From Bacteroidota bacterium (GTDB lineage Bacteria > Bacteroidota > Ignavibacteria > Palsa-1295): a stretch of DNA of 34,456 bases. Shown piece after piece: positions 2,875 to 33,525 of this stretch (within the stretch, counting starts at the first letter, position 1; each line of letters starts with the position of its first letter). Both the position numbers and the translations under genes were made by a program. The notes beneath the pieces are model-generated. The model was given only the letters and a program-made list of their open reading frames with translations, did not search any database and was not told the origin of the DNA. The DNA lies in NCBI GenBank assembly GCA_030706385.1, contig JAUZOQ010000029.1, forward strand, positions 1 through 34,456, read 5' to 3'.

Positions 2875-4488
2875 ATGAAGACTGTATTCCTTGCCTTAAC
2901 TTTAGGAGTTCTATTTACTTTAGCGGGTTCGAGTGCCACAGCGCAACTAAAAATCATAGCAGATATCGATACATCGTTTGCGCATGGTGGAAAGGTCGAA
3001 GTGGCCCTAAGTGCATTTGGCGATGAGGTTACCGATTTCTATGGTGTATTTCCCGATGTGCAGACGACGAGTAAGATCACCGTCTGCGGAAAAGTCGGCA
3101 CTGCCGATCCGAGTCTCTATAAAATTGGCCTGATCCAACTTAATCCATTAGGATCGTTCGACGCCTCATTCGGAAGCGGCGGCAAAGTGATTACATCGTG
3201 GGGTGTATCCTCGTACCCCAATCGCATGTTTGTAAGCCCAATCGATAGCAGCATCATTATTTCGGGAATGTCGGCCTCAAGCACGGATTACCGCGATCAC
3301 CTCGCATCTCTATTCAAGTTCAAGAAGAATGGTAGTATCGATTCGAGTTTCGGAGGTGACGGGCATGTTGCCGTTCGATTCAATGCTCTGTTCGGCGGCG
3401 AGTTCGTAAATATCTATCCTGTAGATACGACCTATCTTGCATGCGGAACAGTATCAACGCAGAGCTCAGTAATCGGGGTCATCGCCATGCGGTTTTTCAG
3501 GAATGGTAATTTAGATACAACATATGGAAGCCAAGGGAAGGGGTTTATTCCCGTGTATATGGAATCAGTGAATGGATTTCTCTCGCCGGATGCAAGCCTC
3601 ACCCTCATTGGCGCAGAAGTACCAACCGATAGTGAACCTCCTATCGTCAAGCACATTATACTCGCGCGCTTCAAGCCTAACGGAATGCCGGATTCCGGCT
3701 TTGGTAAGAACGGAGTAGTCAAGACCGGTGTCGTCATCGGAAGGAATTCTGTTGCTGCAGCTATCCAACCGAACTACGATATCATTGCTGCCTATACACC
3801 GCCCGAGATATCCTTGAACGTACCGTGGATAGTAGTCCGGTTCAACATCGATGGATCGCTCGATACTCTCTACGGAGATAAAGGCTACGTCACGATCGGC
3901 TTCGGTCCGGGATCTTCAGAAACCAGAGGCGTGAACATTGCCAAGAATGGCAAAGCAACCGTTAATGGAAATGTATCTTACGGGCAAGGTTCCTGCGCTA
4001 CTGCACGGATTAATCCTGACGGCTCTCCTGATATAACTTTCAATCAGATCGGAAATGCCGTGATCGATGTCGATAGCGGCGCTTATCCCAACTACCTGCT
4101 AAAATTTGTCGGCATCGGAAATAAGAAGTATTGTGGAGTCGGAGGATCAATCCATAATGGGCTCTCCCAGTTTCTGATCGCAAAATTCAGGGATGATACG
4201 TTACCGACGGTTTCCGTTGCAACTTCCGACGGATCCGGCGAAGGAGTTCAGATCTATCCGAATCCAGCTTCTTTGAGTTTTACTATTCAGACGGAGAATA
4301 GGTCGATTTCCAATATTACTCTCCTCGACGAATTAGGCCGTCACATTCAGCTCACTAGCGAACAGAATATTTCATCAGGATCACAGCACTTCGTGTTCGA
4401 TTCCTCCAAATTACAGAATGGCCTTTATCACTGCGTTATCCGATCGGGAGGGAAGCAGATCGTGAAAGATTTAGTGATCCTGCACTAA
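2875..4488 (+). CDS. Delta-60 repeat surface protein with T9SS sorting domain (copy 1)
   Basis: This 537-residue secreted protein has a Sec signal peptide at residues 1-23 (cleavage at ATA-Q). The body contains at least seven copies of the delta-60 motif, of the form G-x-x-D-x-x-F/Y-G-x-x-G-x-V, for example GSFDASFGSGGKVITS, GSIDSSFGGDGHV, GNLDTTYGSQGKG, GMPDSGFGKNGVV and GSLDTLYGDKGYV. These repeats are expected to form a beta-propeller-like fold. Residues 459-537 are a T9SS C-terminal domain: IYPNPAS, a LLDELGRHI strand, NGLYHCVI, and a KDLVILH end. It should be exported by Sec and then secreted or surface-attached by T9SS; its ligand is unknown. It is convergent with the multicopper oxidase gene, 12 bases away, and paralogous to the gene at 9640. 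Confidence 0.9.
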   Translation: MKTVFLALTLGVLFTLAGSSATAQLKIIADIDTSFAHGGKVEVALSAFGDEVTDFYGVFPDVQTTSKITVCGKVGTADPSLYKIGLIQLNPLGSFDASFGSGGKVITSWGVSSYPNRMFVSPIDSSIIISGMSASSTDYRDHLASLFKFKKNGSIDSSFGGDGHVAVRFNALFGGEFVNIYPVDTTYLACGTVSTQSSVIGVIAMRFFRNGNLDTTYGSQGKGFIPVYMESVNGFLSPDASLTLIGAEVPTDSEPPIVKHIILARFKPNGMPDSGFGKNGVVKTGVVIGRNSVAAAIQPNYDIIAAYTPPEISLNVPWIVVRFNIDGSLDTLYGDKGYVTIGFGPGSSETRGVNIAKNGKATVNGNVSYGQGSCATARINPDGSPDITFNQIGNAVIDVDSGAYPNYLLKFVGIGNKKYCGVGGSIHNGLSQFLIAKFRDDTLPTVSVATSDGSGEGVQIYPNPASLSFTIQTENRSISNITLLDELGRHIQLTSEQNISSGSQHFVFDSSKLQNGLYHCVIRSGGKQIVKDLVILH

Positions 4489-4500
4489 TGATACATTGGC

Positions 4501-6180
4501 TCAGCGCATGACGGTGAGCGTGGTTTTCCTATCGCCCAGGACGACGAAGTAGCTTCCGATTGGGATTAAAGAAGCATCGAAGCTATATTTATCTGCCCCT
4601 GCCGTTAGACTCTTTTCTAAAATCACCGTTCCTTTCGTATCGGAGATTCGTAATGTCTCTGCTTTCGCCAGAGGCAAGAACGTGAACACGGCATGATCCG
4701 ATGCCGGATTAGGCGAAATTTGTACTGTACTTATCTCAGAGCCTGCGCCATCGGTTACACTTGAAGAATCGATAACGAAATTTGCCATCATTCCCATATC
4801 GGCATGTTCAAGTTTATGGCAATGAATGAGAAAGAGTCCGGAGTAATCGGTGAATTTCAGTAAGACATTCACCGTGCCTTGAGGATCGAGCCGAACGATA
4901 TCCTTCCAGCCGCCTTCTGTTGGTTCAGGTGCGCCACCATTACGATCGAGAACTTGAAATTGTGCTCCATGCACATGGACAGGATGGGTGTTCTCCGCTT
5001 CGCTCATAAACGTCCATTTCTCAAGTTGCTGAAAAGGCACGTGAGCATCGATGCGGTTGATGTCGTAGGCCTGGTCGTTGATATGATGGATCGCTGCAAA
5101 AGTCCAGATCCGAGTGGGAGCACCGGCTGCCTGATATTTTTCAATCGCCGGCAATTGTGAAGGTATCGTGCCGTTCGATACTCCGCTCTTATTAATTTGA
5201 AATTGCATCAGATCCATTTCTGCTCCTTGGGCTACCGTTCCAGAGCCTGCTCCATCGCTAAACGTGAATTTCAGTGACTTTAGATTTACGGTTTGGCCTT
5301 GCGAATAAGAAGAAAAATCTATCAGAACATCGAGTCTCTCTGCCGGAGCAAGCCATGCACTCGTGAGAGTAAGCGGCGAGTCGATGAAGCCGCCATCATT
5401 GCCGATAACGGTGAATGACTTCCCATCACTCAAAGCAATCTTGTAGAACCGGGAATTCGAACCGTTGACTAGACGCAAGCGGTACAGCGTTGGCGCAACG
5501 GAGAGATACGCATTCGGTGTGCCATTAACCAATATGGTATCGCCGAGCCATCCGCTGTTGATATCCAGATTGCCGGGAGCATAGATCAGTTGGTGATCCG
5601 TATCGAACCGTTTGTCGGTAAACATCAAAGGAACGTCATACTCTCCGGATGGAAGGGATAAAGCTTTCTCTTCATCATCTTCTACGATAAAGAAGCCGGC
5701 AATTCCTTTATAGACTTGCTCTCCCGTCGTCATATGAGGATGAGCATGATAGAAACTTGTGCAGGCCCGTTGAATGATGGGGAAGCTTACACTGTAGGAA
5801 TTGCCACCGGATACGGCATCACGCGGATGGCCTCCCATCGAACTTGGAGCATGTATGCCATGCCAATGAAGCACGGAATCGTCGACCAGATTATTGTGGA
5901 TCGTTGCTGCGAATGTATCCCCTTTCTTTACACGAATAGTCGGCGCAGGAAAAGAATTATTGATGAGCAGCAGATTCGTGTCGACTCCGGGATAGATCTT
6001 GAACGAAGAGGGAGCAAGGGTCAGGTCGCCGCCGGAGATGACTGCCGGAATCCTGATCTCCTGCATCTCAACCGGTGGTGCGCCAAAGATTTGAGTAGGG
6101 AATGCATTCAGTTTCGATGCAGCGGCGGCAGCGATACCTGCCTGAGCTGTGCGCTTGAGAAATGTTCTGCGTGTGATCAT
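4501..6180 (-). CDS. Multicopper oxidase with Tat-type leader and T9SS sorting domain
   Basis: This blue-copper oxidase transfers electrons from a reducing substrate (a phenol, Cu+ or another metal) to O2. All four copper-binding blocks are present: HWHG (H105, H107), HAHPH (H145, H147, H149), HPVHVH (H399, H402, H404) and HCHKLEH-ADMGM (H453, C454, H455, H459, M464), which supplies type 1, 2 and 3 copper ligands. The N-terminus (ITRRTFLKRTAQAGIAAAAA) is a Tat-type twin-arginine leader. The last ~80 residues (ISPNPAS, a LRISDTKGTVI strand, IGSYFVVL, TLTVMR) form a T9SS sorting domain. The ATG at 6180 is preferred over a TTG two codons earlier. The length (559) equals a normal three-domain CotA/CueO-size enzyme plus the tail. 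Substrate is not predictable. The kelch gene lies just upstream on the same strand, 46 bases away. Confidence 0.93.
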   Translation of the reverse strand: MITRRTFLKRTAQAGIAAAAASKLNAFPTQIFGAPPVEMQEIRIPAVISGGDLTLAPSSFKIYPGVDTNLLLINNSFPAPTIRVKKGDTFAATIHNNLVDDSVLHWHGIHAPSSMGGHPRDAVSGGNSYSVSFPIIQRACTSFYHAHPHMTTGEQVYKGIAGFFIVEDDEEKALSLPSGEYDVPLMFTDKRFDTDHQLIYAPGNLDINSGWLGDTILVNGTPNAYLSVAPTLYRLRLVNGSNSRFYKIALSDGKSFTVIGNDGGFIDSPLTLTSAWLAPAERLDVLIDFSSYSQGQTVNLKSLKFTFSDGAGSGTVAQGAEMDLMQFQINKSGVSNGTIPSQLPAIEKYQAAGAPTRIWTFAAIHHINDQAYDINRIDAHVPFQQLEKWTFMSEAENTHPVHVHGAQFQVLDRNGGAPEPTEGGWKDIVRLDPQGTVNVLLKFTDYSGLFLIHCHKLEHADMGMMANFVIDSSSVTDGAGSEISTVQISPNPASDHAVFTFLPLAKAETLRISDTKGTVILEKSLTAGADKYSFDASLIPIGSYFVVLGDRKTTLTVMR

Positions 6181-6226: not shown

Positions 6227-7483
6227 CTACTGCTTCACGACCATCTTCACGATAGAATTATGCTCTGTTATGAGATGAATGAGATAGAGCCCGGCAGGAA
6301 GGTTCGAAAGGTCGATCGTAGTGTCGACTGCACTAAATTCTAACGGATCGGTGACGACGGCTCCGAACATGTTCTCAATGCGGATTTTCACCGGCTCTGA
6401 GGAGTATTGCTGAAGATGAACGATTCCGCTTGTAGGATTAGGAAATAGTCTCGATTCAACTGCCGATTTCGGTTCCTTAACATCGTTTGTTCGGGGCGTA
6501 TAAACTTCATTCACATTCAGAAAACCTGTTCCATCCCTTCCGGAGAGAGCATAAATACTTCCGTTTGCGGCGACAGAAGCGAGACCGGCACGCGGTGTGA
6601 ATGTGCCTGTTGTTTGCGGTGTGTTCCATCCATTTGTCGATGGATCGAATACTTCGAGTGTATTGAGATATTTGATCCCGTCATACCCGCCGATCGTGTA
6701 GATCTTCCCATCGAGCACGCTTGAAGCAAGCCCCTCGCGATGAGTGAATGTTCCGGTAGTCTGCGGTGTGACCCATGTGTTTGCTTGCGGATCGAAGACT
6801 TCCGGAGAAATTAATATGCTTGAACCCTGACCGCCAAAAACATAGATCTTTCCATCCACAGCACAGGCCGTGAGGTCGGTTCGTCCTGTCATTTTTCCCG
6901 ACGTTGAGGGAGTGCTCCATGTCTTCGTCTCAGGATCGAGTACTTCCAGCGTACTCAGATAACCGTTATCGGTATTATATCCTCCGAGCACGTAGATATT
7001 GTTATCAATGACTGCAGCTGCTGCACGCCAGCGTTTCGTAAAAGTGCCGGTGGTAATGAGAGAAGTCCAAATTTGTGTTTGCGGATCGAAAACCTCTACA
7101 ATGTTCGAGGCTCCACTCGAATCATATCCGCCCAGCGTATAGATCTTGCCGCCGACTACAGCACAGCAAAGACCTTTGCGCGGAGTGAATTTTCCGGTAG
7201 TTGTGGGTGCACTCCATACATTGAGTGCCGGATCAAAAACTTCAAGCGTATCTAAGAATTCAGAGCCATCATATCCACCAAGAGTATAGATCTTTCCATC
7301 CACCACACAAGCTGCGAACGCAGCTCTAGGACTAAATCCGGTTGATGATGCCGGGCTCCACGAGCCCGACAAACTCTGAGCGAACAGGGAACCAGGAAGA
7401 AGAATGGATAGAAGCAAGATGAAGATAGGTAAAGAAAAAACCCCGTCCTTACGTGACGGGGTTTTCCTGAACGATCTCATCAT
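6227..7483 (-). CDS. Kelch-repeat beta-propeller with T9SS sorting domain
   Basis: This is a secreted protein of about 418 residues. Six kelch blades can be read, each with a hydrophobic run, a V-x-G-K-I-Y-x-x-GGY core and a downstream LEVFDPxTxxW (for example VDGKIYTLGGYDGSEFLDT and LDGKIYTIGGYDGIKYLNT), so a six-bladed propeller is expected. The C-terminus (LFPNPTSGIVHL, RIENMFGAVV, AGLYLIHL, KMVVKQ) is a T9SS sorting domain. The start at 7483 (or the adjacent ATG at 7480) gives a workable signal peptide: a basic 16-residue n-region, the core FSLPIFILLLSILLPGS, then LFA-Q. A longer frame upstream runs into the preceding gene. A strong terminator hairpin lies inside codons 7-17 of this frame. 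Binding partner unknown. Confidence 0.87.
   Translation of the reverse strand: MMRSFRKTPSRKDGVFSLPIFILLLSILLPGSLFAQSLSGSWSPASSTGFSPRAAFAACVVDGKIYTLGGYDGSEFLDTLEVFDPALNVWSAPTTTGKFTPRKGLCCAVVGGKIYTLGGYDSSGASNIVEVFDPQTQIWTSLITTGTFTKRWRAAAAVIDNNIYVLGGYNTDNGYLSTLEVLDPETKTWSTPSTSGKMTGRTDLTACAVDGKIYVFGGQGSSILISPEVFDPQANTWVTPQTTGTFTHREGLASSVLDGKIYTIGGYDGIKYLNTLEVFDPSTNGWNTPQTTGTFTPRAGLASVAANGSIYALSGRDGTGFLNVNEVYTPRTNDVKEPKSAVESRLFPNPTSGIVHLQQYSSEPVKIRIENMFGAVVTDPLEFSAVDTTIDLSNLPAGLYLIHLITEHNSIVKMVVKQ
7435..7465 (-). terminator. Strong rho-independent terminator, inside the start of the kelch gene
   Basis: On the minus strand AAAACCCCGTC and GACGGGGTTTT form a perfect 11-bp stem around a 7-base loop, followed by a run of six T (two of them beyond the stem). 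It sits 39-69 bases after the stop of the GVxG-repeat gene (stop at 7504), where a terminator for that gene is expected. It also overlaps codons 7-17 of the kelch gene, beginning only 18 bases after that start codon. Confidence 0.85.
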
Positions 7484-7503
7484 CAAACTCACTTGGAGCA
7501 CCG

Positions 7504-9450
7504 TTATTGCTTTACAACCCACACATTCATATATGCGGGTGTGGTAAACGTTTGGTTGTTGAGGCTGAGGATCTGCCATTTTGCTCTGCCGCTATCGTAG
7601 TACACGCCGAGCGCTTGCTTGAAGCTCCCTGCGTTAAACGCGGTGAGATCTTTCACGACGTAGGTTACGAAGAGCAGGCAATTCGGATCGCCGTTACAGA
7701 TAGGATTATCGATCTCCGTTTGAGTATTGGTGATCTTATTCGCAGCGGTTACGGTATGTTGGAATGCGGCCTTATTTGCACCGCTTACCTTAATTGCTCC
7801 GTTATCCAGTTGCATTGCATTACCGATCCCGTTTCCGACGTAGCTTGCCTTAACACCGGCACCATTGGGAGAGGAAGTCTCACCAAGAACTCCGTTATTT
7901 GTTGCAGAGCCATCCGTTGCTTTTCCATAAACTCCATGTCCGGTTGGAGTTTCACCATAGACTCCCCATCCGCTACCGGCCTGATAGCCGACAACTCCAA
8001 TGCCATTGCCATTAGCGCTGACATTGATTCCGCGTACACCTGCACTCCAGGCAGCGGGCGTACTGCTGGACGCTTTACCGAAGACTCCGGTCGGTCCGGT
8101 CAGAGCGCCGGTTCCTGCGCTTGCGCTGAAGGTCTCTCCGAGGACTCCGATCGAATTATTCTGACCATAACCCGATCCGTGAATTCCTGTGGCACCGTCT
8201 TTCAGAGCAAACCCTCTGACTGCTTCACCTGATCCGGCATTCGATGCTTCCAGTGCCTGAGCTGAGCTTGATGTGTTCGTGATCTGGAAAAATCCTGCGC
8301 GGCCTGTCGTGCTCAGCCCTGTCACTCCATCGCCGGCAACTGCAACGCCGGAAACACCAGTTGAATTATTGTTTCCCTTACCCTGGACGCCAGCGTATGA
8401 AGACGATCCGCCATCGCTATAGCCGACAACTCCGAAATAATTGACTCCTGCATCTCCCCAGATTGCAGCATTCGTGACGATCCCCAAACCGGCGCCTACC
8501 CCTGCAAGTCCGCGAATCGTCGTACCCGTTGCACCGGTGTTGGCTACGGTGAAGACAGAGCCAGTCAGGTTTGCGCCGAGCGCGAGATACGGCATCTGCA
8601 ATATCGGCTGCTGCCATGCAACGTTTCCATTTCCATCGGCAGAGGGGACATAATTCTTTGTCACGTTCGGAGCAGCGATCTTCGACACCGTTACTGCAAG
8701 ATCCTGGATGTTTGCATTTGTAATTGCATTGGCAGCCATCTTATCATTCGAGATCCCTGCCTTCGCAACGCTGACTAAAGCGATCGGTCCGCTCGAATTA
8801 GCGACTGCGATCGAAGTATCTCCCGGAGAAACGCCTTGAATTCCATTACCTGTGCCGGGCGGAACATTGATCGTGACCGTTTTTCCTGACGTCGTGACCT
8901 TCGTCGCGCCGCTGCCGGTGATGATAATATCGCCGCTTGCATCATTGATCGATCGGACAACTCCCGTTACGCCTGCCGAGAGAGCGTTGGCAGAATCGGC
9001 TATCGTTGCATGCGCAGCGTAGAGCGATGTTGCAGTGCTAAAGGCATTTTGTGCAAATGCGGAGTTAAGAGCGTACGGAGCGGCTGTCAGAAGCGTGCGA
9101 GGTGTAAGTTCGGCGCCGCCATCAATGGAGATGCCGAGGAAATAGGCGCTATCGAATTGGACATGGCCGGGAATCGCTGTTTGAGATCCGATCATCGCAG
9201 AGAGAACGCCTCTCGTTATTGCATCACTCTGTGTTTCGGTAAAGATCGCAGTCCCTCCGGAAGGGAATGTATAAAGATTGAATGTAATGGTATGATTACC
9301 GTCGGGTATCGGCCTTCCCGTATTATCGGTAACTATGCCCTGATAGCTGAGTACGCGAGGGATTTGAGCATCTGCGCGATGAGAAGCCAGAAGAAAAAAG
9401 AGGCATACTAACAGTAGAGAGATCGATCGTGTTTTCATAAATAACTTCAT
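7504..9450 (-). CDS. Large exported low-complexity protein with GVxG-type repeats
   Basis: This 648-residue product starts at an ATG at 9450 or, as likely, at 9438 (MKTRSISLLL); neither has a clear SD. The signal peptide ends at ADA-QIP. The segment after it, IPRVLSYQGIVTDNTGRPIPDG, begins a beta domain seen at the start of many large FCB-group surface proteins. Residues ~160-290 are Thr/Ala/Ser rich. From ~300 to 560 there are irregular repeats of G-V-x-G with small residues (GVQGKGNNNSTGVSGVAVAGDGVTG style, GVYGET, GVYGKA, GVLGETS), resembling tail-fibre or beta-helix passenger stalks. The C-terminal ~80 residues, with paired cysteines (ICNGDPNCLLFVTY), are a separate domain ending NVWVVKQ. 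No T9SS domain is visible. The function is unknown; a surface fibre is a guess. Confidence 0.8.
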   Translation of the reverse strand: MKLFMKTRSISLLLVCLFFLLASHRADAQIPRVLSYQGIVTDNTGRPIPDGNHTITFNLYTFPSGGTAIFTETQSDAITRGVLSAMIGSQTAIPGHVQFDSAYFLGISIDGGAELTPRTLLTAAPYALNSAFAQNAFSTATSLYAAHATIADSANALSAGVTGVVRSINDASGDIIITGSGATKVTTSGKTVTINVPPGTGNGIQGVSPGDTSIAVANSSGPIALVSVAKAGISNDKMAANAITNANIQDLAVTVSKIAAPNVTKNYVPSADGNGNVAWQQPILQMPYLALGANLTGSVFTVANTGATGTTIRGLAGVGAGLGIVTNAAIWGDAGVNYFGVVGYSDGGSSSYAGVQGKGNNNSTGVSGVAVAGDGVTGLSTTGRAGFFQITNTSSSAQALEASNAGSGEAVRGFALKDGATGIHGSGYGQNNSIGVLGETFSASAGTGALTGPTGVFGKASSSTPAAWSAGVRGINVSANGNGIGVVGYQAGSGWGVYGETPTGHGVYGKATDGSATNNGVLGETSSPNGAGVKASYVGNGIGNAMQLDNGAIKVSGANKAAFQHTVTAANKITNTQTEIDNPICNGDPNCLLFVTYVVKDLTAFNAGSFKQALGVYYDSGRAKWQILSLNNQTFTTPAYMNVWVVKQ

Positions 9451-9639: not shown

Positions 9640-11223
9640 ATGAGAAGTATTGCCACGGTAATTCTGATGTTTTCTCTTGTGCTTTTTGCACGCCAATCCA
9701 ATGCACAGCTCGAGATCAGGATCGATCCGACATTTGGAAATGCTGGGAGGACGGTCGTGAATATCGGCGGCTTGAATAATGAGGTTACGGCGTTCAACGC
9801 CGAGCGGGGAAAGCCAACAACAGTCTGTGGCAAGATCAGCACCGCTCTTCCGGGAATATACCGACTCGGAATCGTACAGGTCGATACAGGAGGGAAACTC
9901 GACGCAGGATTTGGCACTAGTGGTATCGTTGATATGGCCTGGAGCGCGACGGACTATCCTCTCGATCTGAAAGTCCTTGATAACGGAGTAATTCTTTCCG
10001 GAGTAAGTGGCTCATCGGCCGCACCTGCAGCAGAGATACCTACGGTATACCTTTTTAAATTCAACGGAACGCCCGACTCTTCATTCGGACATTTTGGCAG
10101 AGTGCAAATGCAATTCGACGATCGCTCTTCCGGAGAAGCCACTAATGTCTATTTCGGAGGATTCAATACCTACGTTGCTTGCGGAAGGTCACTGGCAAGC
10201 GAAGGCGGTGTCAGCGGATTCGGCGTTATGCGCCTTAAGAGCGATGGCACGCTGGATTCGTCATTCGCGTTTAACGGCAGAGCGATCATACCCGCTCTCG
10301 TCCACTCCGTACAAGGCTTCTTTCTCAATGACCGTCGAATCTTCATGTGCGGTATTAGTGATACCGGAAGGCCGGAACTCCTGGTTGCCAGGTTCACAGA
10401 ATTCGGATGGGCGGATTCGGCTGTCGGCACAAATGGATTGATCCATACCGGCATTTATCTCGCTCCCGACAAGAATATTTTCGCTGCCTTCGAAGGAGAT
10501 AATAAGATCATGATCTTACTTCCAACACCGGATTCTCTGCCTACTCCCATCACGCTATGCCGGTTCGATCCGCATGGATTTCTCGATGCGGGTTACGGTA
10601 TCGGCGGATTTGCCAGGAATGAGATCTCTACGTCATTCACGCCGAAAGGTCTCGACGTCCTTGGCGATTATGGCTGTGTCGTTTCAGGATTGGAAAATAG
10701 CGGAATCGGCAGATCGATGTTCATGAAGATCAACGATACGAGTGGACATCTCGACCCACGATTCAGCACAACTCCAATCGCAGTCGATGTCGATAACGGC
10801 AATCAGAATTTTCTTCAATTTATCTGGACGCTCGGCAAAACGGATCCCTCCGGAGTTATCAAAAGGTTCATCGGAGTCGGAAGTTCTGTCAAAGATGGAG
10901 TCGGAAGTTTTATGATCACGAGATTTCTCGGCATTCAGAAAAGCGCTGTCTTTAGTTCTCCTGAGTCCGACAATTCATCGATAGAAGTTTATCCTGACCC
11001 CGTCGTGTCATCTTTCAAAATCAAATGCGGAGATGAAAGAGTGAGAACGGTGCGGGTCATTGACGCGTTAGGCCGCGAAATCCTGAAAGTCGGAGCAGAG
11101 GGCTACTCGCCGGATGATCATACGTTTTCATTGAACGCTTTGAACATTCCGAATGGAATCTACTTTTGCCTTGCGGAAGGTAGCGGACATAGCATGGTGC
11201 AAAAATTTGTCGTGAGCCACTAA
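9640..11223 (+). CDS. Delta-60 repeat surface protein with T9SS sorting domain (copy 2)
   Basis: This 527-residue protein is a colinear paralogue of the one at 2875. It has a signal peptide at residues 1-22 (cleavage at SNA-Q), then delta-60 motifs (IDPTFGNAGRTVV, GKLDAGFGTSGIVDM, GTPDSSFGHFGRVQM, GTLDSSFAFNGRAII, GWADSAVGTNGLIH, GFLDAGYGIGGFA). Residues 447-527 form a T9SS domain (VYPDPVVSSFKI, VRVIDALGREIL, NGIYFCLA, KFVVSH). Shared landmarks with copy 1 include TVCGK near residue 60 and VACG in the middle. Its ATG lies 20 bases before the methyltransferase across a short gap downstream, on the same strand. The role is presumably surface binding; the ligand is unknown. Confidence 0.9.
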   Translation: MRSIATVILMFSLVLFARQSNAQLEIRIDPTFGNAGRTVVNIGGLNNEVTAFNAERGKPTTVCGKISTALPGIYRLGIVQVDTGGKLDAGFGTSGIVDMAWSATDYPLDLKVLDNGVILSGVSGSSAAPAAEIPTVYLFKFNGTPDSSFGHFGRVQMQFDDRSSGEATNVYFGGFNTYVACGRSLASEGGVSGFGVMRLKSDGTLDSSFAFNGRAIIPALVHSVQGFFLNDRRIFMCGISDTGRPELLVARFTEFGWADSAVGTNGLIHTGIYLAPDKNIFAAFEGDNKIMILLPTPDSLPTPITLCRFDPHGFLDAGYGIGGFARNEISTSFTPKGLDVLGDYGCVVSGLENSGIGRSMFMKINDTSGHLDPRFSTTPIAVDVDNGNQNFLQFIWTLGKTDPSGVIKRFIGVGSSVKDGVGSFMITRFLGIQKSAVFSSPESDNSSIEVYPDPVVSSFKIKCGDERVRTVRVIDALGREILKVGAEGYSPDDHTFSLNALNIPNGIYFCLAEGSGHSMVQKFVVSH

Positions 11224-22820: not shown

Positions 22821-23133
22821 TGTGCTTGGTAATAGGTTGTGATAGATGCGGCGTTTGATCCTCAATACTCCTGCCAACAAAAATGTTCGGTGTCGTATTC
22901 TCCTGAGCATCGCATTTCTACTGAAGTTGTAATCAGGAAAATTGGATACCCTCCATCTAATCTGTGCGAACATGAACTCTTGTCTTTGTAATTTCGTATT
23001 TTAGTGGCGAGTTGTCTTGTTTTCAGGCGAAATTGATTAGAACACTGTAAGATTTCCAGTCGGGGTTTTGTAACTCCGGCACATGCTAAGTGTTCTGGTT
23101 AAGGAGTTTGCATTCTTCTTGGAGGTACTAACT

Positions 23134-24717
23134 ATGGATCGCAGATCATTTCTCACCGCTTGGGCGCAACGCCCGGGCATAACAGCTTATAATCATTCCC
23201 CAGCCTTCGGCTCGCATGAGCGAACCCTTTCGACTGGGCTCGAACCTTGGGTACCAAGCGTAGCTGAGCCCTGGGATGCCGTCCGGCAAGGGCATCTTTT
23301 GCGCCGGACAATGATGCTCCCGAAATGGACGGAGATCGATACGATCTCTAGTCTCACTCCATCGGCAGCGGTAGATCTGCTCTTAAATACTGCGAGTGAT
23401 CCTGCTCCGCCATCACAAGCCAACCACGAGACGACTTCGTTGAAGGGATTGGATTCTCCACTTGCCAATGCGCTGAAAGCCACATGGGCTTCCGATGACG
23501 CAGAGCTCAAGGATTGGTTTGCGAATGTTCTTTTGAACTCGCCTCTTTCCATTATCGAAAAGATGACTTTCTTTTGGAGCGGGCATTTTACAAGCCAGTT
23601 CGTAGCCGATGAATCGTATGTCATCGCTCCGCTGCTATATCGTCAGAATCAGCTTTTCCGCAATAACGGACTTTCGAATTTCCAGAGTTTGGCATTCGAT
23701 GTCACTCTGGACGGCGCCATGCTTGTTTATTTGGGCGGCATATTAAATACGAAGAGCCGTGCAAACGAAAATTACGCGCGGGAGTTGATGGAGCTCTTTA
23801 CGATGGGCTTGGGCAACTATTCCGAAGGTGATGTTAAGGAAGCTGCACGGATCCTGACGGGGTGGCGAGTGGCTCAGTTTAGCGACGAAGCAACACCAAA
23901 TGGAATATTCAATACGTATTTCTCTCCTGCCGATCATGACGAGGGAAACAAGACGTACCTTGGCGTATCATTCAGCGCCATAGTGGATGCCGATAATACC
24001 GAATTCCTCGTTAAGAAGAACGAGATCCAAAAACTGATCGATACGATCTTTACTTATCGGAAACAAGCAGTAGCCACGTTTATCTGTCGGAAGATCTATA
24101 AATTCTTTGTCTACAGCAATCCGGAAGGAACAGATGAAACGGTGATCGCAGCAATGGCTCAATTGTTCATGGACAACAATTTCGAGATCAAGCCGGTCAT
24201 CTCGGCACTTCTGAAGAGCGCGCATTTCTTCGACAATGCAAATATCGGCTGCCAGATCAAAACACCTGCTGAATATATTATTGGTATCGCTCGGCAGCTT
24301 GGGTATAAGACATCCATGGCTGCGAACATGACTACGATCTTACAGGAATTGTTCAATCCGCCGAATGTCAGCGGATGGACTGGCTGGCACGATTGGATCA
24401 CAACCAACACGTATCCTGTGCGATCGACGGTTGTCACGACTGCGATTGGCGCGATGACCGATCAGAATGTTCTCGATTTTATCGGGCAATTCCCGAACAA
24501 TGACGATGCGAATAAACTGATAACCAGTCTTGGTGCGCTCATGCTTCCGCGGAAACTGGCCCAGGCAAGGCACGATGATCTTGTCTCTCGTCTTGTCAGC
24601 GGCGGAAAAGATTACGAGTGGCCGTCGATCTTAAGCACAAGTCCGAGTACGGCCGCACGAAATATGCGCGATGTGCTAACGACGATCTGTAATTTGCCTG
24701 ACTATCAACTCTGCTAG
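23134..24717 (+). CDS. DUF1800 domain protein
   Basis: This is a 527-residue member of DUF1800, a family of unknown function that is nearly always coded next to DUF1501. The start at 23134 has a good SD (GGAGG, 8 bases upstream); an upstream ATG in frame adds 17 residues. Landmarks are FWSGHFTSQF (~145), NENYARELMELFTMGLGNYS (~211-230), VKEAARILTGW (~233-243), ATFICRKIYKFFV (~313) and PPNVSGWTGWHDW (~409-421). The N-terminus MDRRSFLTAW looks like a twin-arginine motif, but no hydrophobic core follows, so it has no ordinary signal peptide. No T9SS tail is seen. The DUF1501 gene follows after 18 bases, clearly an operon. Confidence 0.9.
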   Translation: MDRRSFLTAWAQRPGITAYNHSPAFGSHERTLSTGLEPWVPSVAEPWDAVRQGHLLRRTMMLPKWTEIDTISSLTPSAAVDLLLNTASDPAPPSQANHETTSLKGLDSPLANALKATWASDDAELKDWFANVLLNSPLSIIEKMTFFWSGHFTSQFVADESYVIAPLLYRQNQLFRNNGLSNFQSLAFDVTLDGAMLVYLGGILNTKSRANENYARELMELFTMGLGNYSEGDVKEAARILTGWRVAQFSDEATPNGIFNTYFSPADHDEGNKTYLGVSFSAIVDADNTEFLVKKNEIQKLIDTIFTYRKQAVATFICRKIYKFFVYSNPEGTDETVIAAMAQLFMDNNFEIKPVISALLKSAHFFDNANIGCQIKTPAEYIIGIARQLGYKTSMAANMTTILQELFNPPNVSGWTGWHDWITTNTYPVRSTVVTTAIGAMTDQNVLDFIGQFPNNDDANKLITSLGALMLPRKLAQARHDDLVSRLVSGGKDYEWPSILSTSPSTAARNMRDVLTTICNLPDYQLC

Positions 24718-24735: not shown

Positions 24736-26337
24736 ATGAAAAGACGCACATTTCTGAAATCCGCACTCGCAACAGCTGCAGCGACGCCGTTCTTCCTTGA
24801 GGGTATGCCGGTTCGGGCCACGACGCCACTGAAGTATCTTGCACAGTTGCCTCAGGCGAATCTCAATGATAGGATTCTCATCATCTGCCAGCTCTTCGGA
24901 GGAAATGACGGTTTGAACACCATCATTCCCGTCGATCAGGATACATATTATAATATTCGTCCCAACATCGCAATTCCAAAGGATAAGACGAAGATCTATG
25001 CCGGGATTAATTTCGCACCGAATCTGATCGGCGGCGATAAGCGCGGACTAGTAGGTTTGCTCGAGCAAGGATCGTTGGCCGTTGTTCAAGGGATAGGATA
25101 TCCGAATCCGAATCTTAGTCACTTTCGCTCAACCGATATTTGGCTTTCGGGAATAAACAATTCGGATGTCGATGCCCGTCTCGATACAGGCTGGGTCGGT
25201 CGATATCTTGAAAAGCAGTATCCGGATTTTCCCGCTTCACTTCCCGATGATCCGCTGGCGATCCAATTCGGTGGTTTTTCACTTGCACTGCAAAGTTCGA
25301 AAGGCAGAATGGGAATTGAAGTAACCAATCCCCAAAAGCAGGCCGGAGTCAGTTCATCTGCTGACGCACTCGATGACGAAAGTACCGGAACATCCTATTT
25401 GAACGAATATAATTTCGTGGCCGATATTGCTTCGCGCTCGAACAAATATGCACAACGCGTCAAGGATGCCTACGCTGCCGGAAAGCCTCAACTCTCCGGA
25501 CACTATGCAAGTGATAGCTTTGCCTCACAGATGGCAAACTGTGCTGCACTTATCGCTGGAGGATTGAACACAAAAGTCTATGTTGTCTCCCTCGGAGGAT
25601 TCGATAATCACGTCTCACAGCTCTTACCTGGCGGAGATTTCAACCAAGGCACACATCCGACACTGCTGAATAACCTTGCCGACGGAATTGCCCAGTTCAT
25701 GTATGATATGGTCAAGCTGAATTTGGCCGATCGCGTTATCGGACTAACGGTCAGTGAGTTCGGCAGGCGCCCATACGAGAACGGAAGTTTGGGGACCGAT
25801 CACGGAACATCGAGTATTCAGTTTGTCTTTGGAACACAAGTCTTGAGCGGTGCACAAGGTTACATTCCCGATCTGGCACATCTTGATGAGAATCAGGATA
25901 TCGTATTTAATATCGATTACCATCGCGTGTACCTTGAAGTGCTAACGAAGTGGTTCGATCTATCCTTGGATGATGCACGGTTGCTCTTGCCCGACCCGAA
26001 GAATTACACCGGGCCGCTTGATCCGCTTCCGATCATTCAGACACAAAAGAACTACGTCAATTATACGCCAAGCCCGGCTCGGCTTTCCATCGGCGGCAAT
26101 TATCCGAATCCTTTTGCCAATAAGACAACGATCTCAATTGAAATGCCACAGGCCGGTATGGTGACACTAAGTGTCTCCTCTATCGATGGGAAATACAACA
26201 AACAGCTCTTTGATCGAAAGCTTGAAGCCGGATTTCAGAGGATACCCCTTGATCTTGATCTTGCATCAGGTAATTACCTGCTCGTCGCAAAATCAGCGGG
26301 AATGACTGCATCCAAAATGGTGCAGTGCGTGAAATAG
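24736..26337 (+). CDS. DUF1501 domain protein with Tat-type leader and T9SS sorting domain
   Basis: This 533-residue protein belongs to DUF1501, an alkaline-phosphatase-like fold family of unknown function. The leader KRRTFLKSALATAAATPFFL is a twin-arginine (Tat) type, cleaved near VRA-TT. Family landmarks are QLFGGNDGLNTIIP (52-65), HFRSTDIWLSG (~131), VVSLGGFDNH (~284), TVSEFGRRPYENGSLGTDHG (~338-357) and the metal-site-like DYHRVY (~395). The end (IGGNYPNPFANKTTIS, VTLSVSSIDGKY, SGNYLLVA, KMVQCVK) is a T9SS sorting domain. The start has a strong SD (AAGGAAGGAAAC) and lies 18 bases after DUF1800. It probably acts at the cell surface; the substrate is unknown. Confidence 0.92.
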   Translation: MKRRTFLKSALATAAATPFFLEGMPVRATTPLKYLAQLPQANLNDRILIICQLFGGNDGLNTIIPVDQDTYYNIRPNIAIPKDKTKIYAGINFAPNLIGGDKRGLVGLLEQGSLAVVQGIGYPNPNLSHFRSTDIWLSGINNSDVDARLDTGWVGRYLEKQYPDFPASLPDDPLAIQFGGFSLALQSSKGRMGIEVTNPQKQAGVSSSADALDDESTGTSYLNEYNFVADIASRSNKYAQRVKDAYAAGKPQLSGHYASDSFASQMANCAALIAGGLNTKVYVVSLGGFDNHVSQLLPGGDFNQGTHPTLLNNLADGIAQFMYDMVKLNLADRVIGLTVSEFGRRPYENGSLGTDHGTSSIQFVFGTQVLSGAQGYIPDLAHLDENQDIVFNIDYHRVYLEVLTKWFDLSLDDARLLLPDPKNYTGPLDPLPIIQTQKNYVNYTPSPARLSIGGNYPNPFANKTTISIEMPQAGMVTLSVSSIDGKYNKQLFDRKLEAGFQRIPLDLDLASGNYLLVAKSAGMTASKMVQCVK

Positions 26338-26398: not shown

Positions 26399-26443
26399 AT
26401 GACTGCGCCTGCAAAGAAAAAAGCTTTCTTACGTTATCGGTGA
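26399..26443 (+). CDS. Possible leader peptide overlapping the start of the giant surface protein gene
   Basis: ATG at 26399, preceded by GAGAGG, opens a 14-codon frame (MTAPAKKKAFLRYR) whose TGA overlaps the GTG start of the next gene by four bases (GTGA). Such an overlap is the usual geometry for translational coupling. It could be a chance frame. Confidence 0.35.
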   Translation: MTAPAKKKAFLRYR

Positions 26444-29400
26444 AACTGATATTCTTATTCATAATATTTTCTATGCTGTTCTGCGGAGCAGTGTCTGTTC
26501 ATGCGCAGAATTGTGACAGCGTTAAGGCATGCGCTTATAAGGCTATAACGATAACGGTTACAAGCGGAAAGGGAGCGCAGTATGTTGATGTGGATACATC
26601 GTATCGTATTCGCAATATCGATACGGCTATCACTTTTGAGGTTTGGGCACAGCCGCAAATTCAACCGGGCAAGAAGGTTTTCATCGGTGGCATCTGGGGC
26701 CCGAACAAAGATAATAATGACGTATGGGTTGCCTACATAGTTGACACAAAGATCTATTTCGCCCTTAGTGCTCCGAATTCGTTTCTTGGAGATCAAGATA
26801 ATACAGTAGCAACAGCTGATGTGCCGGACCTTTACACACGGGGTTGGATTCATCTGGCCTTCATTTGGGATGGGATCTCTCAAGAAGCAAGAATTTTTGT
26901 GGATGGATTCGAAGCAGCGCGTACTAGAAATGCCGCATTCCCTATCTCTGTACTCCACCATCAGGAAAGCGAAAAACTTCCTCTTGAAATTGGAGGGTGT
27001 AACGGGCTCTATGACGATCCGAATCTTAACCGCACCTTCCTGGGTCAGATCGATGAAGTTCGTTTATGGAGCCGTGCACTTTCGAGCAATGAGATCCGTT
27101 GCCAGAGAAATAAATCTCTTGAGGGCAATGAGCAGGACTTGGAGATCTATTATCGCGCCAATGATTCGAGTTACGTCCTTGATCTTTGCGATGCCACAGG
27201 ACACGGACACGTTGGCAGAGAGCGCAGCGGAGCCCGGATGTATCCGAGTGATCGCACCGTGCCCGCAACATTCACGCTCACTCCGAACTCGCTTAACGCC
27301 ACACTGATTTGTCAGGACGATTCAGATTTTACTTTCACGTTACTCGATACTTCATTTTGCGGCAATTCACTAACTGCGTATGTGTATTCAGGCTATTCAA
27401 CGCTCTATACTCTCAGCCAATCGACATTTAATACGCAGCAAGGTGTACCCATCACATTCACTATTCATTTTCATGGAAATCTAACCGGAGCGCTGGCAAC
27501 GTATTTGTATATCCAAAACAATAACAGATGCGGTGATTACCTGCGAATTCCTCTTGTCGTAAACCGTACAACGGAATTGCAATATAGCCAATCTGCATTG
27601 GTCTTCGATACGCTTTTTGTCGGATGTGCAGAACATTCCTTTTCGGAGGATTCACTCAAGATCTGCAATCAGAGCAACAGGCCGCTGAAGATCTACCAAA
27701 TTCTAAATAATAATCCAAAGTTTTCCTGGAAGCCTCTTCCCGGCAATCTTAATCTTCCGGTTACTTTGCAGCCGGGTGAGTGCTGGTCGCTCATCGTCCG
27801 TATGGATGTGAACGATACGACAAAAACCCTCTATGACACCCTGCACGTCATCAGCGATGATAAATGTCCCGGAAGCGGCTTTATTCCGCTTCAAGGCAGA
27901 ACTCAAGATGTTTTCGTCCTGCTTTATCCCAGTGCAAAGTCCCAGATCCACAACATGGCATTCGAAGCTGTGTGCCCCGGTCAATTGAGCAATGTTCAGG
28001 ATTACCAGTTCCGGGACTTGATGAACGATAATGTCAATATCGACAGCATAACATTTACTATACCAGAGTTCTTCGGAAGGAAGTGGACCTTCCCGATCGT
28101 CATGAAGCCCAAAACGGCATACACTCCGGAATTTATTCGATTCCGTCCCTCGGCCCCAGGACCATTTGTGGGGCAGATGAGGGCGATCAGTCATTATCGC
28201 GGATGCACGATCACGAAGACCATCGATCTTACCGGAACAGGAATTTCAGTCGACGTTGCATTCCTTACTCCTCAGGTTCTCTTCGGAAATATATCCGTCG
28301 GAAAAGTTGGCAACCAGATCGCAACGGTGAAGAACACCGGAACGGATCCGAGGAATATGTCCTCCTACCTTAAAGTAGGAGATGTATTCACGATTACAGG
28401 TGGAAAAACATTTGGGCTTGCTCCCGGCCAGACGGCGAATATTTCCCTTCAATTCCGTCCTAGGGAAAACAAGACGTACTATGATACGCTTTGCATTTTC
28501 GATCTTCAGTGCTATGGGACGATCTGCATTCCTGTCAGTGGCACCGGAGTGTTTGAGCAACTTGAATTTCGTCCAGCATATCTTGACATCGAAAATGTTC
28601 TGGGCTGCGAGTGCAAGACCGATACCGTCATGGTTCTCAATAGGACACCATCGGCATTCTCGATCACAAGCGATGCTTTGATCGATCCGAGTGGAAAGTT
28701 CACGATGCTCAATCATATTCCAACCGGCAATCTGCAACCAGGTCAGTCGTTCACGTATCAAGTGCAGTACTGCCCGAATGACCTCATCAGCGATCGTGCC
28801 GATCGCTCGTATATTCAAGTTAATCTTGCCGACGGCTCGAACTATCAGATACTTCTTCAGGGATCAAGCATGGTGCCGAAGCTTGCTGTCACGCCTCTGA
28901 CCACTTACGGACCTGTTGAGGTGGGCTGGCGCAAGGATGACAGCCTTACGATCGAGAATATTTCGGTGATCCCTGTCCACATCACTACTGTTTCAGTGCC
29001 TCCGGGATTCGTCTTGCTTTCTACGTCTCCGGCGCTTCCGATGTGGCTAAATCCTCGGGACTCGATAACAGCCTACGTTCGGTTCGCACCAACAGCAGGA
29101 CAAAATTATGTTGGTAATGTGATCGTTACGCTCGATACTCCGTGCGGAAAGCAGACTACGGGCGTCGTAACCGGTACCGGAACCGTGATCAAGCTCGATG
29201 TTCCGGTTCAGTTGATCAATTATGGATTAGTGAAACCCTGCGATTGCCAACAGCGTGAAATCCCTCTGACTAATCAAAGTAATTTCATCCCGATCAAGAT
29301 CGATTCGATATGGATCGACGATGTAGGACTGCCGAACCCCAATGCAACAGTCTTCAGTTGGTTTTCCAGACTGACGGGAAAATCGTCCGGATCGTTCGTC

Positions 29401-31350
29401 ATTCCGCCAAATACAGAGGATACGCTCGTTATCTCATTCTGCCCGAACATTCCTGCTCTTCCGCAGAACTTGACGATGAATGCTCAGATTCACATCAAGG
29501 CAAGCACGCCCGGCTGGAGTCAGCAATTCAATACATATCTTTCCGGAAGGCGTGAAATGAATTTTGAACCAAACCAATCGCTGGTTCAATTTCCGAATAC
29601 TCACGTCGATACCAGTGCCCAACCGATAAAGGTCAGCGTCACAGTGCCAGATGCGTTTACAAATCCGAGCGGAGATAGTATCATCTTCACTAAAGCGATC
29701 TTTGTCCCCGACCAGCGCGTCTTTACCGTTGCAGAATGTTCGGGTAAGCCTTTGCCGTGGATCGTTCGAAGAGGACAATCACTCTGCCTTACGTTCAACT
29801 TCTTCCCCAGGGCTCCAAAGAAGTATCGTGCTCGGTTGAACTTGTTCACGAGTTTTCCGTGCGATGGAGTCGATACGTCAATTCTTGTCACCGGAGAAGG
29901 TTTTGCTCCGGCATTCGGAGATGCCATGGCATTTGACACATCCCGGATCAATCAGGATACATTCCATATCACGACATGTGATACGCTGGTCATCTCGATC
30001 ATGATCACACGTGATATTCCGCAAAGTATCATCGATATGCTCTTCCATCTGGGATACGATACGACGAAGTTGAGATTCCTGGATATCCAGTCGCCATACA
30101 CGAATCAAGCTACGGGTTTGGATAGCGACGGCGTGTGGGCCGACTTGAAGAATGCCCGCGACGTGAAGGCCGGAACAGTTTGTTACGTGCGATTCTTACC
30201 TCGGGGTGATACGGCAAATTTTGTCATGTCCTTGGACAATATCGATTTCTCAAGCGATTCGATCGTCTTCTACAATATTATCGTAAATAACGATCATTGT
30301 ACGATCTTGATCGATAACCCGGAGATCAGTATCCAGAAACTGACGGATTTCGATACAGTACTCGTGAAGCAGTGCAAGAGCTTGCAAGTCGTTGTGCGGA
30401 ACCCTGGACTTGTTCCAATGCGCTTCGATTCGCTCGGAACACTGCCTCCGTATCACAGGATCACGGCATCGGATAAGCCCTATCCGCTGACATTAGCACC
30501 TGGGGATTCGATCGTTTTGACCGTTACTTTCTGCCCACTAGCCGATAGCTTGATCGATACGTCGGCATTTGCATTTTCAAATCAACCTTGCCCGATCGTC
30601 GATACAGGAAGGATACATAGTTATGGCTATGCTCCGCCGTATCCGCTCACGCTTTCATTCGATCCGCGCATTGGCATCGTCGATACGGTTTTCGGATTGA
30701 TCGCCGATACCGTTGAAGTTCCGATCCTCATCGATCGAGGCATGCCGCTTACACCGATCGATATCCGGTATACCATTGGCTATGACAAATACGCTTTGCA
30801 GTATCTCGGAATCACTTCAAAATACACTAAGCCGGTCGTGACCTATCAACCGGGCAAACTGGATGTAGACCTGTTGGGCTGCGATAGCGTAACAGCAGGA
30901 GAGATTGCACGAGTGAAATTCCTACTCGAGATTCCTGATTCAGTGATTTCATCTATGATCCTGACTCCGCGGAAGTTCACCAGCGACTCTGTCATGTTTA
31001 TCAAACCAGTACCGACCGGTGATACCAGTTCGGTGAAGATCGGAGCTCGCTGCACAATAAGTTATCTTGTATTTGCCGGAGGATCGAACACTTTTGCGAA
31101 TCCGCGTCCGAATCCAACGACAGGAAAGGTGGAGACGGAAGTACAATTCTTTGAAGATGTCAATCCGAAGCTGACGATCTATTCGAGTACCGGCGCAAAA
31201 GTCATGGACGTGCTCGATGGCACACAAATGATGAAGGGCGGCCGCTATAAACTGGAGTTCGATGTCTCACATCTTTCGGAAGGCGCTTACGTCCTGGTAT
31301 TTGAGGCCGGAGAGTTCAGGGCAAATAAGCGGATCGTTGTTAGAAAATAG
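26440..31350 (+). CDS. Giant T9SS surface protein: LamG, choice-of-anchor-D and cohesin-like domains
   Basis: The 1636-residue product has a signal peptide (residues 1-22, cleavage at VHA-Q). Residues ~30-265 are a LamG-type sugar-binding fold (FEVWAQP, WIHLAFIWDG, GQIDEVRLWSRALSSNEIR). From ~375 to ~1150, and again near 1290-1400, lie choice-of-anchor-D (HYDIN-like immunoglobulin) repeats, each with a C-x-C or single C, V-x-L-x-N turn and L-x-P-G. Two cohesin-like modules sit near 1160-1290 (FHLGYDTTKLRFLDI) and 1400-1535 (YTIGYDKYALQYLGI). The end (~1551-1636: PRPNPTTG, LTIYSSTGAKVMDV, EGAYVLVF, KRIVVRK) is a T9SS sorting domain. It is expected to be a cell-surface adhesin or scaffold. The start is GTG. 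It follows DUF1501 after 102 bases. Confidence 0.9.
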   Translation: MKLIFLFIIFSMLFCGAVSVHAQNCDSVKACAYKAITITVTSGKGAQYVDVDTSYRIRNIDTAITFEVWAQPQIQPGKKVFIGGIWGPNKDNNDVWVAYIVDTKIYFALSAPNSFLGDQDNTVATADVPDLYTRGWIHLAFIWDGISQEARIFVDGFEAARTRNAAFPISVLHHQESEKLPLEIGGCNGLYDDPNLNRTFLGQIDEVRLWSRALSSNEIRCQRNKSLEGNEQDLEIYYRANDSSYVLDLCDATGHGHVGRERSGARMYPSDRTVPATFTLTPNSLNATLICQDDSDFTFTLLDTSFCGNSLTAYVYSGYSTLYTLSQSTFNTQQGVPITFTIHFHGNLTGALATYLYIQNNNRCGDYLRIPLVVNRTTELQYSQSALVFDTLFVGCAEHSFSEDSLKICNQSNRPLKIYQILNNNPKFSWKPLPGNLNLPVTLQPGECWSLIVRMDVNDTTKTLYDTLHVISDDKCPGSGFIPLQGRTQDVFVLLYPSAKSQIHNMAFEAVCPGQLSNVQDYQFRDLMNDNVNIDSITFTIPEFFGRKWTFPIVMKPKTAYTPEFIRFRPSAPGPFVGQMRAISHYRGCTITKTIDLTGTGISVDVAFLTPQVLFGNISVGKVGNQIATVKNTGTDPRNMSSYLKVGDVFTITGGKTFGLAPGQTANISLQFRPRENKTYYDTLCIFDLQCYGTICIPVSGTGVFEQLEFRPAYLDIENVLGCECKTDTVMVLNRTPSAFSITSDALIDPSGKFTMLNHIPTGNLQPGQSFTYQVQYCPNDLISDRADRSYIQVNLADGSNYQILLQGSSMVPKLAVTPLTTYGPVEVGWRKDDSLTIENISVIPVHITTVSVPPGFVLLSTSPALPMWLNPRDSITAYVRFAPTAGQNYVGNVIVTLDTPCGKQTTGVVTGTGTVIKLDVPVQLINYGLVKPCDCQQREIPLTNQSNFIPIKIDSIWIDDVGLPNPNATVFSWFSRLTGKSSGSFVIPPNTEDTLVISFCPNIPALPQNLTMNAQIHIKASTPGWSQQFNTYLSGRREMNFEPNQSLVQFPNTHVDTSAQPIKVSVTVPDAFTNPSGDSIIFTKAIFVPDQRVFTVAECSGKPLPWIVRRGQSLCLTFNFFPRAPKKYRARLNLFTSFPCDGVDTSILVTGEGFAPAFGDAMAFDTSRINQDTFHITTCDTLVISIMITRDIPQSIIDMLFHLGYDTTKLRFLDIQSPYTNQATGLDSDGVWADLKNARDVKAGTVCYVRFLPRGDTANFVMSLDNIDFSSDSIVFYNIIVNNDHCTILIDNPEISIQKLTDFDTVLVKQCKSLQVVVRNPGLVPMRFDSLGTLPPYHRITASDKPYPLTLAPGDSIVLTVTFCPLADSLIDTSAFAFSNQPCPIVDTGRIHSYGYAPPYPLTLSFDPRIGIVDTVFGLIADTVEVPILIDRGMPLTPIDIRYTIGYDKYALQYLGITSKYTKPVVTYQPGKLDVDLLGCDSVTAGEIARVKFLLEIPDSVISSMILTPRKFTSDSVMFIKPVPTGDTSSVKIGARCTISYLVFAGGSNTFANPRPNPTTGKVETEVQFFEDVNPKLTIYSSTGAKVMDVLDGTQMMKGGRYKLEFDVSHLSEGAYVLVFEAGEFRANKRIVVRK

Positions 31351-33429: not shown

Positions 33430-33525
33430 CCGAAAACTCGGCAATATAGCAGTCTGCCTTGCATCTTTATTGAGAACGACGGCGGAAGATTCTTCGTTTT
33501 GAAGGCAAATACTATTACCTGCTCT

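Follow-up and report, generated by a model that had tools for sequence, protein, structure and literature searches.

Within a 34,456-nucleotide contig of a Bacteroidota bacterium (the whole of this stretch is called the window below), a multicopper oxidase carries a twin-arginine leader at its N-terminus and a T9SS-type domain at its C-terminus. This combination had been proposed in an earlier note, and our analysis bears it out: the leader exceeds the cut-off of the Tat model TIGR01409, and the tail is recognized by profiles, fold and relatives. The finding is wider than that note supposed, as the window holds a second Tat+T9SS protein and the pair recurs across the phylum. Judging from the sequences, the oxidase likely represents a minority class of T9SS cargo, which would enter through Tat, already folded, and exit through SprA. 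The gene and its parts are arranged as follows.

4501..6180, complement strand: multicopper oxidase gene with Tat leader and T9SS-type C-terminal domain, 559 aa (open reading frame and Cu-oxidase Pfam domains)
6073..6180, complement strand: leader, residues 1–36, with the motif TRRTFLK and a helix predicted at 4–22 (TIGR01409)
4762..6072, complement strand: multicopper oxidase core, residues 37–473 (Pfam, copper motifs, structure match)
4735..4761, complement strand: linker, residues 474–482, within a stretch (474–492) with model pLDDT below 50
4504..4734, complement strand: T9SS type A-like C-terminal domain, residues 483–559, with a PNPA motif and seven strands (profiles and model)

The earlier note had taken T9SS cargo to be Sec-dependent, and the parts of the literature available to us say the same. 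A Sec leader is stated for all T9SS effectors in PMC10202324, a 2025 paper holds that all of them possess a Sec-dependent signal peptide (PMC12618676), and a 2017 review assigns Sec to T2SS, T5SS or T9SS and Tat "for T2SS only" (PMC5449463); the portions seen of PMC7463736 and PMC9251779 likewise give Sec as the entry route. General sentences in the available text of PMC5445135 and PMC10925705 allow "Sec or Tat" for two-step systems, the former without a T9SS example and the latter with T9SS in its list, again without an example. No report of a Tat-entered T9SS cargo was found in the parts of the open-licence literature covered, which does not prove absence; such a protein does not appear in the sections available from PMC4804311, PMC5121618, PMC6549377, PMC11198818, PMC11495043 and PMC8400371. 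Proteins matching both models are probably already shown in database annotation. The two-stage route, Tat followed by T9SS, is not described for T9SS cargo in those parts of the literature.

The oxidase reading frame starts with an ATG at 6180 and ends with a TGA at 4501–4503 on the complement strand, whereas the automatic listing places the start upstream, at a TTG (6186). We accepted the ATG because the leader aligns from it in the closest relatives, which rules out a false Tat leader created by a wrong start codon. All three Pfam matches exceed their cut-offs (Cu-oxidase_2, 97.3 bits; Cu-oxidase_3, 89.5; Cu-oxidase, 30.7). The four copper-ligand motifs HWHG, YHxH, HxxHxHG and HCHxxxHxxxxM are all present, including the HCH cysteine and the axial methionine, as HWHG at residue 105, YHAH at 144, HPVHVHG at 399 and HCHKLEHADMGM at 453; the glycine that the search pattern demanded at the end of the third motif is absent from several relatives. 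The protein is thus predicted to be a copper-binding, laccase-type multicopper oxidase, and the intact motifs rule out an FtsP-like copper-free scaffold.

An AlphaFold2 model of the full-length protein, built from 39 sequences (pLDDT 87.9, pTM 0.78), has three parts: the oxidase core, a segment of low confidence at 474–492 and a separate C-terminal domain of seven strands. The core has a mass of 47.8 kDa and, by a rule of thumb, a minimum sphere of about 4.8 nm. Its best match in the PDB is the Sulfurimonas multicopper oxidase 8z59 (Z 56.4, rmsd 1.6 over 433 residues), which is the best match in sequence as well (40% identity over 433 residues). This match stops at the end of the core, with window residue 473 (numbered in the TTG-started frame) falling at the end of the 8z59 chain; unlike the window oxidase, the 8z59 chain has no sorting domain.

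Further T9SS-tailed proteins are encoded near the oxidase gene, at 2875–4488, 6227–7579, 9640–11223 and 26440–31350. Two of them have DUF5122 repeats, one (6227–7579) is a Kelch protein, and one of 1636 residues combines a Laminin_G_3 domain with Ig domains of ASH/HYDIN-like type. The Kelch frame as listed (6227–7579) overlaps the end of the frame at 7504–9450, at 7504–7579; its true start is probably downstream, since a clear leader begins only after an internal methionine. A partial frame at 33499–34455 matches the N-terminal domain of homogentisate 1,2-dioxygenase. A copper-resistance operon was also considered and is ruled out, as the window frames scanned with Pfam include no copper-handling family, neither a copper chaperone nor a pump.

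The leader, MITRRTFLKRTAQAGIAAAAASKLNAF, scores 19.5 bits against the TIGR01409 cut-off of 16.7 and is the best match to this model in the whole genome. R4, R5 and F7 are invariant among the window oxidase and five relatives with intact leaders (44–60% identity), and most other leader positions vary. Tat or Sec character was judged by TIGR01409 together with hydropathy. Over the first 90 residues, the leader hydropathy is 1.27, compared with a median of 2.65 among the genome's 91 other scored sorting-domain proteins, only one of which is at or below 1.27. By these measures the leader appears to depart from the Sec-type signal peptide stated for T9SS effectors in the literature, and the departure is conserved in relatives.

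The region matching the sorting-domain models comprises the last 77 residues of the oxidase, at the extreme C-terminus, so the earlier placement within the last 85 residues was about right (483–559 by the model). The description of a full T9SS sorting domain was slightly too strong: the domain is real, yet both curated cut-offs are just missed (TIGR04183, 22.5 vs 23 bits; PF18962, 23.2 vs 27). A local profile made from the genome's 30 best sorting domains, with the window oxidase tail excluded, scores the tail at 24.5 bits, and none of 1100 shuffled C-termini exceeds 6.6 bits. Modeled alone, the tail forms seven strands (pLDDT 81.1, pTM 0.67), and within the full model pLDDT is 84–92 over residues 501–550 and lower toward the domain ends. 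PNPA and GxY are kept in the six closest proteins, and PxP, G and GxY in 24 tails.

A profile of the tail family searched against the PDB returns the sorting-domain chain 8glj_D first (E 4.6e-7), with the ice-binding protein 5uyt_A and the sorting-domain chain 8glk_D (E 5.2e-5) among the other top matches, a likeness to T9SS cargo at the level of sequence. Foldseek matches include the T9SS substrate chain 8glk_D and the mirolase CTD 8qb1 (E 0.01–0.05), and VIA matches include PorZ 5m11 (Z 9.1, rmsd 2.2 over 77 residues). In the structure search DUF3244 proteins come first and fibronectin type III domains score about equally, so a sorting domain is not singled out by its fold. The sequence profiles rule out a generic Ig or fibronectin domain, a distinction that the structure search cannot make. 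It is the combination of relatives, the predicted seven-strand fold and the PDB profile match that identifies this weak-scoring tail as a T9SS-type domain, and the lack of any sorting-domain match, which the earlier note had named as a possible refutation, does not apply.

The genome (3.52 Mb, 96% complete) encodes components for both steps. Tat genes, whose absence the earlier note had considered, are present as TatC (194 bits) and two TatA/B-type proteins (60.6 and 60.1 bits). SprA is found with a SprA_N match above cut-off (E 9.2e-50), and proteins resembling the PorU-type sortase and PorV match their models below the cut-offs, with 158 bits (cut-off 420) and 63.2 bits (cut-off 250), respectively. 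Across the set of relatives, SprA occurs in 59 of 61 genomes and in every one of the 53 with a completeness of 90% or more and no more than 5% contamination.

To place the oxidase among the other cargo of its genome, we compared both ends of these proteins. There are at least 150 sorting-domain matches, this being the number listed from 308 candidates, and the N-termini of the best 100 of the 150 were examined. Two of these 100 have Tat leaders, a Rieske protein on contig 73 and a DUF1501 protein on contig 125; seven frames start at contig edges, and the 91 others were scored for hydropathy. Arginine pairs near a hydrophobic stretch occur in four of the 91, all with a hydropathy of at least 2.1. 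From the other end, the Tat model has 17 matches in the genome, one of them a 56-residue frame and nine of them below the cut-off, and the C-termini of these were checked. An RR leader and a sorting domain occur together in six proteins: the window oxidase, a second oxidase paralogous to it on contig 1, the Rieske protein, and three of the DUF1501 family, one of which lies in the window at 24736–26337. The Tat cut-off is exceeded by four of these, and two DUF1501 proteins (13.0 and 13.4 bits) lie below it. Their leader hydropathies range from 1.27 to 2.03 and, on this single measure, two of the 91 other sorting-domain proteins are at or below 2.03. The tail of the oxidase paralogue is weaker than that of the window oxidase (TIGR04183, 13.6 bits; local profile, 18.0 bits).

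A one-off or chimeric gene is ruled out, since the leader–tail pair is conserved in the oxidase family. Relatives at E 1e-30 are present in 17 of the 61 genomes, and a scan of named genomes confirmed 518 relatives, of which the best 80 were used. Together with the window oxidase, its paralogue and L033, these gave 83 rows; two with missing motifs were dropped, leaving 81. The tail is present in 30 of the 81, and 29 of these 30 have an RR leader and none a lipobox; the thirtieth, L235, has such an RR leader in a different frame immediately upstream. Among the 51 tail-less rows, 31 have a lipobox, and a further 17 of the 81 rows have an RR leader with neither lipobox nor tail. The lipobox pattern overlooked at least two lipoprotein-like leaders (L279 and L285), and the identical or near-identical rows L290/L291 and L251/L252 are kept in the counts. 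From the last copper motif to the end of the protein, tail-less rows have 6–25 residues in 50 of 51 cases and 79 in one, and the tails of sorting-domain rows measure 89–121 residues. On a quick core tree, without bootstrap and with the tail-bearing row L255 on a long branch, the tail requires 2 changes, compared with 24.5 in shuffles. Tails of relatives reach up to 70 bits on the local profile.

Named records with the tail are titled Ignavibacteria, Ignavibacteriae, Ignavibacteriales, Ignavibacterium, Melioribacteraceae, Chlorobi, Chlorobiota or Bacteroidetes. The tail is absent from the Gemmatimonadota, Armatimonadota, Acidobacteriota, Chloroflexota, Opitutia, Rhodoferax and archaeon rows. 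A lipobox without a tail occurs in two rows titled Ignavibacteria and in all four titled Kapaibacterium, so taxon is not a clean predictor of the tail. This distribution of lipobox, tail or neither among the relatives indicates that one Tat-type oxidase is given different predicted later addresses across the family: anchoring by a lipid in many Bacteroidota and in some of the Gemmatimonadota, the T9SS tail chiefly in the lineage of the window and the Ignavibacteria group, and neither address elsewhere.

In the alignment of 39 rows (A2), TIGR04183 finds 25 at E 0.05, equal to the number of tail-bearing rows entered, and the Tat model finds nine at the same threshold. The low Tat count probably arises because methionine replaces the phenylalanine after RRx in many rows (16 of 26). 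The arginine pair is invariant in all 39, a circular result, because rows were picked for RR. The leaders of three more distant tail-bearing oxidases of the class (L046, L047 and L048) resemble Sec leaders on visual inspection, so an oxidase with a tail does not always require Tat. Algoriphagus relatives have NR where others have RR.

The pair of signals also occurs in two families unrelated to the oxidase, the DUF1501 and the Rieske proteins. One DUF1501 gene lies in the window, next to a DUF1800 gene.

23083..24717, forward strand: DUF1800 protein with an RR motif near its start (MDRRSFLTAW), directly upstream of the DUF1501 gene
24736..26337, forward strand: DUF1501 protein with the RR leader MKRRTFLK and a T9SS C-terminal domain, the second Tat+T9SS protein in the window

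The DUF1501 domain itself is clear (PF07394, 59 vs 27 bits). The tail of this protein exceeds the TIGR04183 cut-off (27.9 vs 23 bits), yet not that of PF18962 (20.5 vs 27), and its leader is below both Tat cut-offs (TIGR01409, 13.0 vs 16.7; PF10518, 18.8 vs 22.7). Within the class, both signals are present in all 28 DUF1501 loci examined, out of 30 once the broken or partial L341 and L342 are left out. Among 20 loci outside the class, picked from the better-scoring matches, all have the tail and 18 have RR, with KRKDF or NRKEF in the other two. Pfam finds no sorting domain in the window DUF1800 protein. In general, the DUF1800 proteins that adjoin two of the DUF1501 genes start with RR leaders and give no Pfam match to a sorting domain. 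Such a protein could possibly be co-exported as the partner of DUF1501. DYQLC forms the C-terminus of the window DUF1800 protein and of two from contig 75, where a third has DYQLS.

The Rieske protein is a sharper case of both signals than the oxidase. An RR leader and a tail are present in all nine Rieske loci examined, these being matches that reach into the Rieske domain; at least four more (G027, G033 and two in G052) were left out. The leaders read RRxF in eight and RRNA in one, and the tails score 32–68 bits on the local profile. The ligands CxH...CxxH are canonical in six of the nine and degenerate in three, and Pfam confirmed the domain in all three loci scanned. Rieske clusters are built and inserted in the cytoplasm, and therefore a Rieske protein using both signals would reach the periplasm folded. 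Possession of both signals thus implies a predicted export with a cytoplasm-built cofactor. Another Rieske protein of the window's genome, L061 (G000 contig 1, 1501–1935), has an RR leader, a lipobox-like cysteine and no tail, alongside the tail-bearing Rieske protein encoded there, the same choice of address as among the oxidases. In L173 and L174, Rieske proteins with RR leader and tail, cysteines follow the leader helix (TCAC and VCAC) in a lipobox-like place, and a triple signal is possible there. Lipobox and tail may thus not be strictly exclusive, against none of 30 tail-bearing oxidases with a lipobox.

The oxidase can be set beside several known systems. It resembles T9SS type A CTD cargo, such as the gingipains and F. 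johnsoniae NucA, in its C-terminal beta-sandwich and in the presence of SprA in the genome, and differs from that cargo in its Tat leader, compared with Sec in the parts of PMC10202324 and PMC12618676 available to us. With SufI/FtsP, a model Tat substrate, it shares the Tat leader and the fold (2uxt, Z 53.1, rmsd 1.6 over 409 residues); SufI keeps 2 of 12 copper-binding residues and binds no copper, according to the portion seen of PMC2661564, whereas the copper motifs of the window oxidase are intact. Tat-entered T2SS cargo passes the inner membrane in the same way and then uses a separate outer-membrane machine for folded proteins (PMC9127263 and PMC5449463, both seen in part); in the oxidase, the outer-membrane step would be T9SS instead. 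The Tat-exported E. coli oxidase CueO has a Tat leader, copper motifs and the same fold (2yxv, Z 53.3, rmsd 1.8 over 424 residues). The window oxidase lacks the methionine-rich segment of CueO (2 Met in residues 300–345) and is below the cut-off of the CueO equivalog (NF008205, 313 vs 525 bits). CueO is periplasmic, is not known to have a sorting domain and is loaded with copper in the periplasm.

Given the two signals, the copper motifs, the TatA, TatC and SprA genes, the conservation of the pair and its recurrence in two unrelated families, we propose a route in which the oxidase would fold in the cytoplasm and be taken through Tat, by its twin-arginine leader, across the inner membrane in the folded state. 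Copper completion would follow, most likely in the periplasm. The C-terminal beta-sandwich would then be captured by T9SS and brought to the SprA pore, through which the folded enzyme would be moved out. Folded passage through a wide pore, as the earlier note had envisaged, is plausible by size: the core needs about 4.8 nm, and the inner diameter of SprA is reported as about 7 nm (PMC7463736, seen in part), which leaves enough room. Folding ahead of the outer-membrane step, which that note had also put forward, is not new in itself, because the available parts of PMC10202324 and PMC9251779 already model Sec-entered cargo as folding before that step, in the periplasm. The novelty would lie in folding that precedes the inner membrane. 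We infer from these features the use of each pathway, the folded state, the timing of copper loading and the final place of the oxidase, anchored or released. The surface attachment put forward in the earlier note is one possible outcome; the PorU-type sortase and PorV models match only below their cut-offs, and CTD cargo may also be released. Against the proposed route speak these low PorU and PorV scores, the near misses of the oxidase tail at both curated cut-offs, the weaker tail of the paralogue, the few Tat-model matches in A2 and the Sec-looking leaders of L046–L048.

The leader could instead be used by Sec, or by both pathways, with the arginine pair inherited from a Tat ancestor and folding taking place only in the periplasm. 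The Sec-looking leaders of L046–L048, as judged by eye, and the NR of Algoriphagus speak for this, as they show that the RR requirement can relax. We nevertheless consider it quite unlikely, because RR is invariant in the window's own clade, the leader hydropathy is matched by a single one of the 91 other sorting-domain proteins, and both signals turn up again in the DUF1501 and Rieske families, the latter with a cluster assembled in the cytoplasm. That the tail is a relic, leaving an ordinary periplasmic Tat enzyme that is not secreted, would fit its scores just below the curated cut-offs, the still lower scores of the paralogue, and the 17 of 81 relatives with RR and neither lipobox nor tail. 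This appears improbable in view of the confident model over residues 501–550, the motifs kept in the six closest proteins and in the 24 tails, the strong tails of relatives, and a distribution confined to Ignavibacteria and kin, Chlorobi/Chlorobiota and Bacteroidetes with 2 changes on the tree.

A further alternative accepts that both signals work and concerns the metal: the apo-oxidase would be secreted and would acquire copper outside the cell. The missing copper chaperone and pump families among the Pfam-scanned window frames are in keeping with it, and the periplasmic loading of CueO points, indirectly, the other way; we regard it as unlikely. Entry through Tat, completion with copper in the periplasm and exit through SprA is the reading that we prefer for the oxidase.

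A broader and rather doubtful extension of this reading is that Bacteroidota in the wide sense may run a dedicated Tat-then-T9SS line for enzymes finished in the cytoplasm. Rieske proteins would reach the surface with their cluster, oxidases would follow, and DUF1501 would carry the tail-less RR-leader DUF1800 through SprA as a ready-made complex.

If the Tat-entry route holds, T9SS would also take proteins that are folded and, in the Rieske case, cofactor-loaded before they leave the cytoplasm. The Tat-entry class would comprise three unrelated families, with DUF1501 spread across the phylum, and the folding state of T9SS cargo would become directly testable with natural substrates. The copper oxidase and the Rieske protein would further suggest surface redox chemistry in the window's lineage and its Ignavibacteria relatives. 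Such a class would correct the Sec-only rule on which secretome prediction may rest.
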